IMG/VR virus record: IMGVR_UViG_3300035698_007126
Coordinates: 1-24,781 of that record
Origin: a virus
Length of the DNA stretch: 24,781 nucleotides
Direction: 5' to 3' (one strand)
A program made the translations under genes and the position numbers. The notes below the pieces were generated by a model. The model did no database searches and was not told the DNA's origin. It was given only the letters and a program-made list of their open reading frames with translations. This document shows positions 21,413 to 24,641 of this stretch, piece after piece (the stretch's first letter is position 1; the number at the start of each line of letters is the position of its first letter).

Positions 21413-21712
21413 CTATTCATCGAACAAACCAGCCATCATCTCTGATGCCTCAGAAAGAGCGCGTTTTCTCGCATTAACGCCATCGGGAATCTCTATATTG
21501 CACTCGATAAACACACCCCATGCGCCATCATGAACGCGCTTTCCCATGCTTCTTAAGTATTTTACACACTCCGGAATGGCTGGAATTGTTATTCTATACC
21601 CCTGAAAGTACATAAAATAACCGCCACCCTTTCTTTCTGAAAACAATGAATAGGAATCAATGCTATTCATCACTATTCGCCTCTCAGCATCCGGCAACTC
21701 AACCAACACCAT
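21413..21712 (-). CDS. Hypothetical protein at the end of the right-hand operon, 99 aa
   Basis: Starts at ATG 21712 after AAAGGGG, overlapping the preceding gene by 14 bp; ATG 21670, with GAGAGG nine bases upstream, is an alternative. The product has a central beta-rich part (GGGYFMYFQGYRITIPAIPE) followed by AWGVFIECNIEIPDG and an acidic helical C-terminus. No family is recognised. The gene is the last of the right-hand cluster; the promoter for the late operon begins 18 bases after its stop. Confidence 0.65.
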   Translation of the reverse strand: MVLVELPDAERRIVMNSIDSYSLFSERKGGGYFMYFQGYRITIPAIPECVKYLRSMGKRVHDGAWGVFIECNIEIPDGVNARKRALSEASEMMAGLFDE

Positions 21713-22139
21713 CACATACCCCTTTCGGCATTTCAACCGTTTCAGCAAGATACACCAACGCTTCCAGATAGCGGTTTCGCGCAGTGCCATAAGAGCCGCC
21801 TGTGAGATAGGCAATCTTACGAAATGACATACCACACGCTTTTGACATTAACAGGCTTGTGTGCAGCCCGTGTGTGCGCGGAAAGCGCTTTGGCATCAAA
21901 TCCATCATCCAATCAATCGCCACCATGTTGGCAATGTCACAATCTTTCCGTGTTGGCTGGAATTTAGCGACAGCGTCACTCCAACCATAAGCATCCATGA
22001 ACGCCCTATGCACTTCCGGCCAGTTAGAGCCTTTGGTGCTTGGTAAAACCGATGGATCACAGCCTATCGTCTTCATGGCGATTTCAAGGCAAGACTCCAC
22101 ATACTCTATACGCTCTTTAAGCGTTTTCAGTTTTATCAT
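21699..22139 (-). CDS. HTH-type phage protein, possible DUF6362-like regulator
   Basis: 146 residues from ATG 22139, with AAGGAG six bases upstream. The C-terminal half has NMVAIDWMMDLMPKRFPRTH, then SLLMSKACGMSFRKIAYLTG and GSYGTARNRYLEALVYLAE: an HTH of the 'a..g.s.r.Ia...g.s..t...r...al..i' type. It resembles, from memory, the DUF6362 phage proteins with a W-phi..lMP HTH core. A DNA-binding regulator of the operon, or of the late promoter 0.3 kb away, is a reasonable inference. A 68-bp gap (22140-22207) before it has no clear promoter. Confidence 0.6.
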   Translation of the reverse strand: MIKLKTLKERIEYVESCLEIAMKTIGCDPSVLPSTKGSNWPEVHRAFMDAYGWSDAVAKFQPTRKDCDIANMVAIDWMMDLMPKRFPRTHGLHTSLLMSKACGMSFRKIAYLTGGSYGTARNRYLEALVYLAETVEMPKGVCDGVG

Positions 22140-22207: not shown

Positions 22208-22558
22208 TTACGGCGATATTTTACGGCGCTTCCTCTGCTTTGCCCTTGCACGATTCTTGTAATTACTAACCAAGCCCCCATCCCTACAGCCTAGCTGCCA
22301 CTGCACATACTCACTCATGCCATGCCGGAATTTCTTCACCACGTCCTCCATAGGAACGCCAGCATTCAAGCATACCTCCATCAGGTCTCTGGATGGCCTT
22401 GATAACCAAAACAGCGCCTTGTTGCGTTCCGCATTGCTTGCATCACTAATCCCCGCCGCATCATCCATCGCCTGAATTAGCACCCGCTGCCAAAGAGACT
22501 GATACGCATCTGCATCGCTTGCGAACGTCTCTGCGATTGGCGGGTTTTGCAGGTTCAT
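22208..22558 (-). CDS. Conserved phage-type helical protein, 116 aa
   Basis: Starts at ATG 22558 in ATGA overlap with the upstream stop, with AGGGAGAGGG before it; a longer upstream frame is ignored. The core AYQSLWQRVLIQAMDDAAG, then ALFWLSRPSRDLMEVCLNAG, matches a widespread phage pattern 'lW..VL.qAi.Da.....a..Wl.s.d...vC.laG.....v' of unknown function. The C-terminus is strongly basic (NRARAKQRKRRK), suggesting nucleic-acid contact (inference). Its fixed place in replication/regulation operons is the main context. Confidence 0.7.
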   Translation of the reverse strand: MNLQNPPIAETFASDADAYQSLWQRVLIQAMDDAAGISDASNAERNKALFWLSRPSRDLMEVCLNAGVPMEDVVKKFRHGMSEYVQWQLGCRDGGLVSNYKNRARAKQRKRRKISP

Positions 22559-23124
22559 TGCGCCCTCTCCCTCTCTAAACACCACCAGCCATTACCTATG
22601 CGAAGGTTTTCTTCAACGGCTCGTAGATATTTGGCTTCATGAACCGAAACGCGCATTGCTTGCAGGGTGCGGATGCGCTCAATTGGCGGGTCTTTCTCGC
22701 CAAGCATGCAATGGCTCCATATATCGGCAATCACGTCATTGCTTTCGAGTGAATTGAACGGCACAACCATTGTTGCCCTATCGCGCAATGCATCTATTCT
22801 CTTGCTGTCTCGGATAACAGGGTAATTCTGGAAACCAAACGCATCGCTAAGGCTCCTATCCACATCAGTGGCGCTCCGGTCTATCAGCACAAGCGGCGCG
22901 TCTGGAAAGTCCTCTGTGAGAACTTCTGGAACATGAATCAGAGCGCTACTGCTATCGCCAACATATCGGGCAGGGTTGTCATGAAGAAGCTGGGTGTATC
23001 TTTCTCTGGAAGAAACATTCTGTACGGCATCGTGATAGCAAAAGCTTTCGCCACTGCTGAATAAGACAGAAAACCATGCGGTGCGGGATCGCGGTAGACC
23101 GGCGATGAAAAACTGCTTACTCAT
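22555..23124 (-). CDS. Sulfotransferase-like P-loop protein
   Basis: 189 residues from ATG 23124 (ATGA overlap with the upstream stop, AGGAGG seven bases before). Residues 5-17 read FFIAGLPRSRTAW, the PAPS-binding 'GxPRSGT' loop of sulfotransferases with Arg for Gly. Residues 54-60 (YVGDSSS) and 79-91 (VLIDRSATDVDRS) match the following strand and the 3'-phosphate-binding Arg...Ser motif. The product is shorter than cellular sulfotransferases (250-300 aa). It may move sulfate to an unknown acceptor, or be a nucleotide-binding protein that has lost activity. Similar genes occur in other phages, as I recall, but their role is not known to me. It lies among replication and regulatory genes, not among the capsid genes. 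Confidence 0.72.
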   Translation of the reverse strand: MSKQFFIAGLPRSRTAWFSVLFSSGESFCYHDAVQNVSSRERYTQLLHDNPARYVGDSSSALIHVPEVLTEDFPDAPLVLIDRSATDVDRSLSDAFGFQNYPVIRDSKRIDALRDRATMVVPFNSLESNDVIADIWSHCMLGEKDPPIERIRTLQAMRVSVHEAKYLRAVEENLRIGNGWWCLERERAQ

Positions 23125-23705
23125 GCCCTAGCCTCCTGATCGCCCACCCACTTTCGCACCACAACCGGATCAAGCCCGTGTATAGCCAGCCAGCGCGTTT
23201 GCACATTCTCATGATGTCCACATACAACCCGCCACACGTCATGCCGATGATTGTCGCCCATCCCGTTCCAGTCCATCTGCTCAATGGGCTGAGATACGGA
23301 TTCTTGCGGCATATCTGGCGAAGGAAGTGCCGCGCATTCATTTGCTACATTCTGCAAGCGCCGTTGCAACGACTGGTAGTGCTTTGTGTAACGCTTCGCC
23401 CGCAACAAAATCTCGCCAGATGGCGGCATGAACGGCTTGTCTTGCGTGGCCTCCCTGATTAGCTCTTTGCATGCCTCAATCAACCCCCCGATAGACACTG
23501 AATCCTCAGCCATCAATTCAGAAATATCGCTTAAGATGACAGCGTCCTTGGTGGCCTCCCTGCTTGGAAAATGCGCCAGCAGCCGCCCCACCCAATAGGT
23601 GCAATCGCTACGGTTCGCCGGATGGCTCAGCCAACCCAAGCTCTGCAAGACGCTCTTTGCTGAGAGGGGTGTATGTTTGATCTGCCATGGCGAGTTCGTA
23701 AGCAT
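23121..23705 (-). CDS. Replication-region protein, possible helicase-loader/partner of the O-like protein
   Basis: 194 residues if started at ATG 23705, which overlaps the replication gene by 98 bp in another frame. No start codon has a convincing ribosome site: TTG 23639 (after GAG) is an alternative that reduces the overlap, and the frame stays open to 23879, but there it would run over a conserved part of the other gene. The conserved-looking part begins near SVLQSLGWLSHP and holds WVGRLLAHFPSR, then GLIEACKELIREATQDKPFMPPSGEIL, which resembles phage proteins following an O-like initiator ('...P..p.P..gdi...a...'). A lambda-P-like role is possible but not established. Confidence 0.55.
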   Translation of the reverse strand: MLTNSPWQIKHTPLSAKSVLQSLGWLSHPANRSDCTYWVGRLLAHFPSREATKDAVILSDISELMAEDSVSIGGLIEACKELIREATQDKPFMPPSGEILLRAKRYTKHYQSLQRRLQNVANECAALPSPDMPQESVSQPIEQMDWNGMGDNHRHDVWRVVCGHHENVQTRWLAIHGLDPVVVRKWVGDQEARA

Positions 23706-24327
23706 CTGCGTGTGTATGACCGCCATTTCTGCGGTTTGCGGTCGTGGCTGGTTTGTCTGGAACGGTGTTGTCATCAAGCCAACCTTTGGCGTTGAGCCAT
23801 GAGCTGACATACTGGGTTTTGCTTTCGGTGCGCTCGCAGCACTGGCAATATTCGGCAGATGTTCGGATAAGCGTTGCATGGTCGGTCTCCTTGGTTGCCC
23901 TGGTGTAGCGGGTCATTGCGCAGCTTTTGCTGCCTTTGCGCATGTCGTATGGCTTCCACTGTCGCCAGAATTGCTCGAAGGCTTCCGAGTGATCGGGGGG
24001 GGGTGGAACCTTTTTGACCCCCGTAGGGGGGTTTTTGGAGGGAGAGGGGGGGGAAGTTAAGGAAGAAAGGGGTGTGGGGAAAGAAACCATTGAAGGGGGG
24101 GGAGAGGGATGTAACGCGTTACATGCGTTACATTGCGTTACATGCGTTACATTGTTTTCACGGAATTTACGCACACGTTCTCTGGTCAAAGCTCGCTTGT
24201 TCTCTAGCTTTTCTGCTTCTCTCAGCTTTTCTTTTTCATTGATATTCTTAACGACAGCAAGAATCTTGTCTGGCGTTACACCCGCCATTTCGAGCGCATC
24301 TATAATGTCGTTAAGGGCGATGCTCAT
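23608..24327 (-). CDS. Phage replication protein (O-like replisome organiser)
   Basis: 239 residues, ATGA-coupled to the upstream gene, with GGAGGGG before the ATG. Residues 1-58 are helical and charged (ENKRALTRERVRKFRENN); 59-73 are encoded by the iteron array; 74-112 form a Pro/Ser linker (the G-rich tract on the other strand). Residues about 115-186 hold the conserved EAFEQFWRQWKPYDMRKGSK...YVSSWLNAKGWLDD pattern ('F..fW..yp.r..K..A......i....Yi.....W L....W.d') seen in many phage replication/helicase-loading proteins. A typical winged-helix N-terminus is not seen, so the DNA-binding part may be short or lie in the basic helix. Role as origin binder is inferred from the iterons in the gene. 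Confidence 0.75.
   Translation of the reverse strand: MSIALNDIIDALEMAGVTPDKILAVVKNINEKEKLREAEKLENKRALTRERVRKFRENNVTHVTQCNACNALHPSPPPSMVSFPTPLSSLTSPPSPSKNPPTGVKKVPPPPDHSEAFEQFWRQWKPYDMRKGSKSCAMTRYTRATKETDHATLIRTSAEYCQCCERTESKTQYVSSWLNAKGWLDDNTVPDKPATTANRRNGGHTHADAYELAMADQTYTPLSKERLAELGLAEPSGEP
23995..24108 (+). other. G-rich purine tract next to the iterons
   Basis: The plus strand carries at least seven G runs of 3-9 (for example 23995-24003, 24026-24031, 24046-24053, 24076-24079 and 24095-24102) with few C. The minus strand codes the Pro/Ser linker of the replication protein. The tract could fold into G-quadruplex structures or ease local unwinding, but the amino-acid bias alone could also explain it. 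It abuts the inverted iteron at 24109. Confidence 0.6.
24109..24152 (-). repeat. Iteron array: five copies of GCGTTACAT inside the replication gene
   Basis: Plus-strand copies of GCGTTACAT lie at 24116-24124, 24125-24133, 24135-24143 and 24144-24152, all identical, spaced 9, 10 and 9 bp. A fifth copy lies inverted at 24109-24117, sharing two bases and forming the palindrome GTAACGCGTTAC. In-gene direct repeats of a short unit are the arrangement of the lambda origin in gene O. The array encodes residues 59-73 of the replication protein. Confidence 0.85.
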
Positions 24328-24641
24328 CCCTCACCCCTCCCGTCCACGTCCACGTCAAAATCTACGGCAAAATCCACACCAAAAACACCGTTAGAAGCCG
24401 TAATAATGTCCCCCTCCTTAATACCCATCGGGTTAGATAAGGGCATTTCATTAACATTAACGATGGTCGCTTTAATGGGAATATCAGCCGGCCAGAAATC
24501 CTCCGGAACATGATCGCTGCAATAGTGGTTGCCATGCGTCCCAAAATTGCCGTCTTTGTTGCAGCCCTTGGCATCACATGGCGGAACGCCCTTTGTTGCC
24601 TGTGGGGGCTTCTGTGTGGTTGGTGGTGGTAGTTTCATCAT
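24324..24641 (-). CDS. Small protein with a possible zinc-binding motif
   Basis: 105 residues. Cys22, Cys27, His36/His39, Cys41 and His44 sit in CDAKGCNKDGNFGTHGNHYC followed by SDH, a compact C-x4-C...H/C-x2-H arrangement that could bind one zinc ion. The N-terminus is Pro/Gln-rich; the C-terminus is an alternating Asp/Val/Phe segment (VDFAVDFDVDVDG). It is ATGA-coupled to the replication gene and would be made with it. An adaptor or DNA-binding role is possible; no family is claimed. Confidence 0.65.
   Translation of the reverse strand: MMKLPPPTTQKPPQATKGVPPCDAKGCNKDGNFGTHGNHYCSDHVPEDFWPADIPIKATIVNVNEMPLSNPMGIKEGDIITASNGVFGVDFAVDFDVDVDGRGEG

Follow-up and report, generated by a model that had tools for sequence, protein, structure and literature searches.

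What is a cluster of short, identical repeats doing inside the coding sequence of a phage replication gene, and which protein reads it? The question is raised by a viral DNA record of 24,781 bases, analysed here over its whole length and referred to as the window. The record derives from a tailed phage and is possibly a fragment; terminase genes are present, and the large terminase is closest to those of Bordetella, Vibrio and enterobacterial phages. Sequence comparison makes it quite probable, in our judgement, that the repeats are initiator-binding iterons located in the codons of a disordered linker, most likely forming the core of the origin, and that they are probably read by the adjacent RVRKFREN helix and not by a winged helix.

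The initiator gene and its repeats

The gene encodes a protein of 239 residues, here called P0001. The features of the locus, in gene order, are as follows.

23608–24327, minus strand: initiator gene P0001, 239 aa, with profile matches to phrog_270 and phrog_9327
24273–24281, plus strand: additional near copy of the repeat, GCGTTACAC, core CGTTACA, codons 16–18 of the initiator gene
24154–24177, minus strand: codons for RVRKFREN, the basic motif (residues 51–58) and proposed iteron-reading helix, within predicted helix 19–72
24144–24152, plus strand: iteron copy 1, counted in gene order (coding strand ATGTAACGC)
24135–24143, plus strand: iteron copy 2
24125–24133, plus strand: iteron copy 3
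24116–24124, plus strand: iteron copy 4
24109–24117, minus strand: inverted iteron copy, forming the palindrome ATGTAACGCGTTACAT with copy 4
23995–24108, plus strand: G-rich purine tract, coding for a Pro/Ser-rich linker on the minus strand; a role in the origin is unsupported
23728–23991, minus strand: C-terminal domain, about residues 113–200, FEQFWRQWKPY...SSWLNAKGWLDD, common to other phage initiators

Four exact copies of GCGTTACAT start at 24116, 24125, 24135 and 24144 on the plus strand, with steps of 9, 10 and 9 bp. The fifth copy is inverted and has two bases in common with the first direct copy, which creates ATGTAACGCGTTACAT. No further exact copy was found in the whole 24,781-base window, while the near copy at 24273–24281, the sixth in all, lies in the same gene and has the CGTTACA core in common with the array. 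None of 300 first-order Markov shuffles produced four or more identical 9-mers within 45 bp. Thus, the four in-phase direct copies and the inverted fifth reported inside the replication gene by the first-pass annotation are confirmed, with exact coordinates.

The array occupies residues 59–73 of the open reading frame 23608–24327 (peptide NVTHVTQCNACNALH). Its coding strand, AAT GTA ACG CAT GTA ACG CAA TGT AAC GCA TGT AAC GCG TTA CAT, is translated as N V T H V T Q C N A C N A L H, and the inverted copy adds a further orientation. Because the 10-bp step shifts the reading frame, one and the same 9-mer is translated first as VTH/VTQ and then, in a second frame, as CNA/CNA. What is repeated is therefore the DNA and not the peptide.

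P0001 consists of a short helical N-terminus, the basic motif, the iteron-coded linker, a Pro/Ser linker and the C-terminal domain, in that order. Among PHROGs profiles it matched phrog_270, “replication initiation protein” (E = 1.1e-14, 55.6 bits, residues 40–200), in a region that covers the motif, linker and C-terminal domain, followed by phrog_9327, “primosomal protein” (E = 6e-7). No Pfam domain was found at E values up to 0.1, and PF09681 was not matched in Pfam. The single-sequence model contained one helix, residues 19–72, with a pLDDT of about 70–92 over residues 11–60 and low confidence elsewhere; on this model, a winged helix appears to be missing from P0001. Single-sequence searches of viral contigs and 369 sampled genomes yielded no close homologues. 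A candidate relative, L247, was a chance match inside a terminase. Likewise, a PDB TALE-repeat match to residues 13–41 (window 24205–24291) was a phmmer sum of many weak repeat matches in which no single stretch passes, and is probably an artefact.

Repeats and the basic motif in other phage initiators

Viral contigs contained 10 loci with three exact units and at least 119 stretches with three copies of TGTAACG. About 20–30 of the TGTAACG matches listed were in frame within initiators, right after a motif resembling (T/A)xRVR(K/R)x(R)E. Many others among the matches listed were outside initiator ORFs, which counts against the reading preferred here. The carriers of TGTAACG differ in their N-terminal domain, which may be Phage_rep_org_N (PF09681), DUF1376 or one of two or more domains that Pfam does not name, and PF09681 relatives with an RVxxHR motif carry GTAACG iterons. 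In genome contigs, three copies of CGTTACA turned up in few prophage initiators only (L154, L157); most matches were unrelated short tandem arrays in Microcoleus, other Oscillatoriales and Bacteroidales. The phrog_270 loci sampled from genomes were mostly weak matches without the motif, which was present in L257 only, and none of these sampled loci had a TGTAACG linker.

Some of the arrays in viral contigs lay outside long ORFs (L004, L007, L009, L011 and L016), a few with inverted copies, and are possibly intergenic origins; the array sequence of L009 is the same as that of Paracoccus L142. In cyanobacterial genomes, many tandem arrays of the 9-mer ATGTAACGG are scattered about (L130, L132, L133, L161, L198 and other Oscillatoriales loci), with no apparent relation to phage initiators.

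Eighty loci were fetched by their N-terminal domain for each of three sets, A2, A4 and A5, and the repeats were not used in the selection. Only for A2 did the query extend over the motif as well. Repeated hexamers were then called de novo in the 180 nt following the motif. We write the motif as R-X-x-x-Z-R, with Z three residues after X. In 120 of the 121 genes with called iterons, all fetched by N-domain only, the repeats were not confined to a single codon phase and orientation. Steps between same-strand copies in these genes peaked at 10 bp (136 steps) and 11 bp (71 steps), which corresponds to one turn of the helix, a phasing that several initiators binding to one face of the DNA would select. 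The steps of 9, 10 and 9 bp in the window are at the short edge of this distribution, which counts against the preferred reading.

The de novo hexamers fell into one type per motif class, and A2, A4 and A5 initiators with the same N-domain but a different motif had different repeats. A valine at X was accompanied by GTAACG in 41 of 44 cases, asparagine by GTGACG in 24 of 28 (four ties), and lysine by GTCACG in 21 of 27, the other six being without repeats. GTGACG was also found with threonine (4/5), GCAACG with serine (6/6) and CGAACG with alanine, class A(W) (14/18). There were exceptions: glutamine occurred with GTAACG in A4 and with GTCACG in A5, L624 pairs valine with GCAACG, and L257, with the motif RVRKYR, has no repeats. 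The rule derived from A2 for V, K and N was correct in 25 of 26 callable cases in A4 and A5 combined. In the opposite direction, starting from the DNA, 28 of 31 ORFs with GTAACG arrays had a valine at X, compared to 1 of about 57 with CGTGACG arrays.

In within-set permutations, the observed mutual information was reached in 0 of 2000 permutations in A2 and likewise in A5; in A4, which is dominated by one class, it was reached in 282 of 2000 and was not significant. In alignments of N-domain plus motif, X outranked every other column in its mutual information with iteron type, at 1.53 of 1.53 bits in A2 and 2.11 of 2.21 bits in A5 (1.02 of 1.02 and 2.05 of 2.20 bits, respectively, with redundancy removed). 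Z came second or third in both sets, and the N-domain columns were much lower. Both arginines of the motif are invariant in 24 A5 proteins. AlphaFold prediction on the A5 alignment placed the motif in a separate helix (residues 100–119 in L620), between the confidently folded N-domain and a disordered linker. A fold search with the L620 model gave no match at E ≤ 0.001, in a list rich in winged-helix regulators.

P0001 belongs to the same group: its R-X-x-x-Z-R motif lies directly upstream of GTNACG-type repeats in mixed phases, and its valine at X goes with GTAACG, as the rule predicts. Named phages also conform. E. coli phage Evi (RKRAQR) and Pseudomonas phage 5399 (RKREQR) have GTCACG, Listeria phage LP-LmcIH1-8 (RVEKHR) has GTAACG, and cyanophage Cy-LDV1 (RSRAFR) has GCAACG. 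In S. aureus phi11, RQQRYR is found with GTAACG/GTTACG. Taken together, these sequence correlations suggest that one amino acid, X, of a small basic helix encoded beside the repeats decides which repeat is used. We found no description of such a motif–iteron rule in the literature, in a search that covered few subscription journals, and an earlier one may exist.

Three further loci (L444, L402 and L423) are P0001-like in having a basic motif, a short N-terminus and no evident winged helix; their motifs RAARYR, RSWRYR and RARAYR occur with GTCACG/GTGACG repeats. In many A5-like and related initiators, a second cluster of the same iteron is located in N-terminal-domain codons, making two arrays per gene (L440, L435, L369, L381 and L473; in L650 and L651, codons 42–64).

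The motif might follow the iteron for a different reason, namely that the repeats are read by the N-terminal domain, a partner or a host protein, and that motif and array are inherited together as one short cassette. The two adjoin in the gene, and at a distance of 10–100 bp such inheritance could produce part of the association. On the N-domain trees, the iteron changes seven times in A2 and 11 times in A5, and the motif eight and 11 times. The well-supported independent switch pairs that were readable were concordant or neutral, with none opposed, but they number only two or three per contrast, so that no sign test reaches 0.05. Nevertheless, one iteron occurs with unrelated N-domains, similar N-domains (about 60–70% identity to the query) carry different iterons, X is far more informative than any N-domain column, and P0001 itself shows no winged helix. 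Moreover, the transfer of the rule between families with unrelated N-domains (the 25 of 26 cases above) speaks against inheritance as a cassette being the whole explanation. We therefore regard a reader elsewhere as unlikely, and the adjacent basic helix as the most likely reader of the iterons, on the strength of this covariation.

More generally, we lean towards the view that diverse tailed-phage initiators share a portable and exchangeable cassette, consisting of a basic helix, R-X-x-x-Z-R, in which X, together with Z, would specify the variable bases of GTNACG-type iterons written in the codons that follow. Its residue spacing may make it a convergent bacterial-virus counterpart of the bZIP basic region. 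The latter has the signature N-x-x-A-A/V-x-x-S/C-R, in which changes at the A/V position alter the target sequence. The residue spacing of [S/T/N]-x-x-R-X-x-x-Z-R is that of the bZIP signature, and the sequence GTGACGTCAC of N-class arrays includes the CRE palindrome TGACGTCA. With the P0001 N-terminus and four other initiators as queries, Pfam gave no bZIP match at E values up to 5, and, unlike in bZIP proteins, a leucine zipper was not seen in the phage initiators here; we do not claim homology.

Only a few initiator-embedded phage origins are known, and the repeats differ from case to case. With a short helix that follows a readable residue-to-base rule, origins and initiator specificity could be predicted from sequence in many temperate phages and prophages, and the exchange of origin specificity inside a single gene would be accounted for. 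Such a rule would also offer a compact test case for the coding of protein–DNA recognition, since reader and site are only a few codons apart.

Relationship to known origins

Iterons inside an initiator gene are the hallmark of the lambda origin in gene O. In lambdoid phages the iterons sit mid-gene, and test plasmids no longer transform when the iterons are altered without a change to the O protein (PMC7466680). The window has the same layout, with the iterons placed centrally in the gene and flanked by the codons of the N-terminal part and the C-terminal domain. In other respects it differs from lambda: the unit is 9 bp instead of the long lambda iteron, the 114-nt flank is GC-rich (60% G+C) where an AT-rich unwinding region would be expected, and the proposed reader in P0001 is a short basic helix. 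No O-type or Phage_rep_O domain was matched in Pfam, and we rejected membership of the lambda O family. Of the earlier description as “lambda-like”, only the layout is retained.

The arrangement also resembles that of the replisome organisers of the P335 lactococcal phages, TP901-1 ORF13 and Tuc2009 Rep2009, which reportedly bind direct repeats located inside the genes encoding them and acting as ori (PMC8965321). Phage_rep_org_N (PF09681) initiators also have direct repeats in their own gene, as does P0001, although P0001 is without the PF09681 domain. For ORF20 of 80α, complementation in trans failed, which points to an ori within the gene (PMC5499656), and in the 80α gp20 record the gene is annotated as containing a putative origin; gp20 was rejected as a case of the same type, being a different type of initiator without the motif.

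Origin activity is here deduced from position and sequence, and some arrays in other contigs are intergenic. The array could be an operator through which the replication operon regulates itself, or a site with some other task in the phage, e.g., packaging. We consider this improbable: the location in the linker of an initiator gene matches that of the characterised lambdoid O and TP901-1/Tuc2009 origins (PMC7466680, PMC8965321), and the type of array follows the motif of the initiator. Selection for the linker peptide, which the first-pass annotation had allowed for, or recent functionless slippage is hardly credible: slippage can create tandem repeats and the linker is of low complexity, but a single array codes for both VTH and CNA, phases or orientations are mixed in 120 of 121 relatives, the unit is identical across very diverged phages, and inverted copies cannot arise by simple slippage.

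The proposal that iterons inside the initiator gene form a candidate origin has gained from their recurrence in many unrelated initiators, the mixed codon phases, the helical phasing and the motif–iteron covariation. From these comparisons and the precedents, we consider that the initiator gene holds a genuine iteron cluster, which very likely belongs to the replication origin. The initiator would recognise the GCGTTACAT/ATGTAACGC array through the stand-alone basic helix RVRKFREN (residues 51–58), encoded immediately upstream. Copies on roughly one face of the DNA would gather several initiators, which may then recruit the helicase or helicase loader via the C-terminal domain. We infer each of these steps, from motif binding through opening of the DNA and helicase recruitment to use as a replication start.

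The G-rich tract and the surrounding region

The tract at 23995–24108, next to the array, had been put forward as a component of the origin. It is 76% purine, 53% G and 60% G+C, with 27 pyrimidines; no other 114-nt stretch of the window is as rich in purines. A role in G-quadruplex formation was rejected: the tract contains no canonical four-run motif with loops of up to 7. In relatives, the coding strand following the array is mildly purine-rich (0.64 vs. 0.56), while the corresponding value for the coding strand of the window is 0.20, i.e., the opposite strand is the purine-rich one. The tract is not supported as a part of the origin, nor is any role beyond coding for the linker.

The next ORF upstream of the initiator gene, with a C-terminus of the FAVDFDVDVDG type, contains short tandem repeats of 6 and 12 bp at 24341–24384. 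At the edge of the contig, positions 1–69 form a tandem repeat with periods of 6, 24 and 30 bp. Between the replication and packaging genes, the ORF at 22555–23124 (minus strand) has a weak sulfotransferase likeness in Pfam, below cut-off, and matches phrog_10855, “hydrolase” (E = 3e-13). The ORF at 21699–22139 (minus strand) matches DUF6362, with weak sigma-70 region 4 and antiterminator Q-like matches, and is likely a late regulator.
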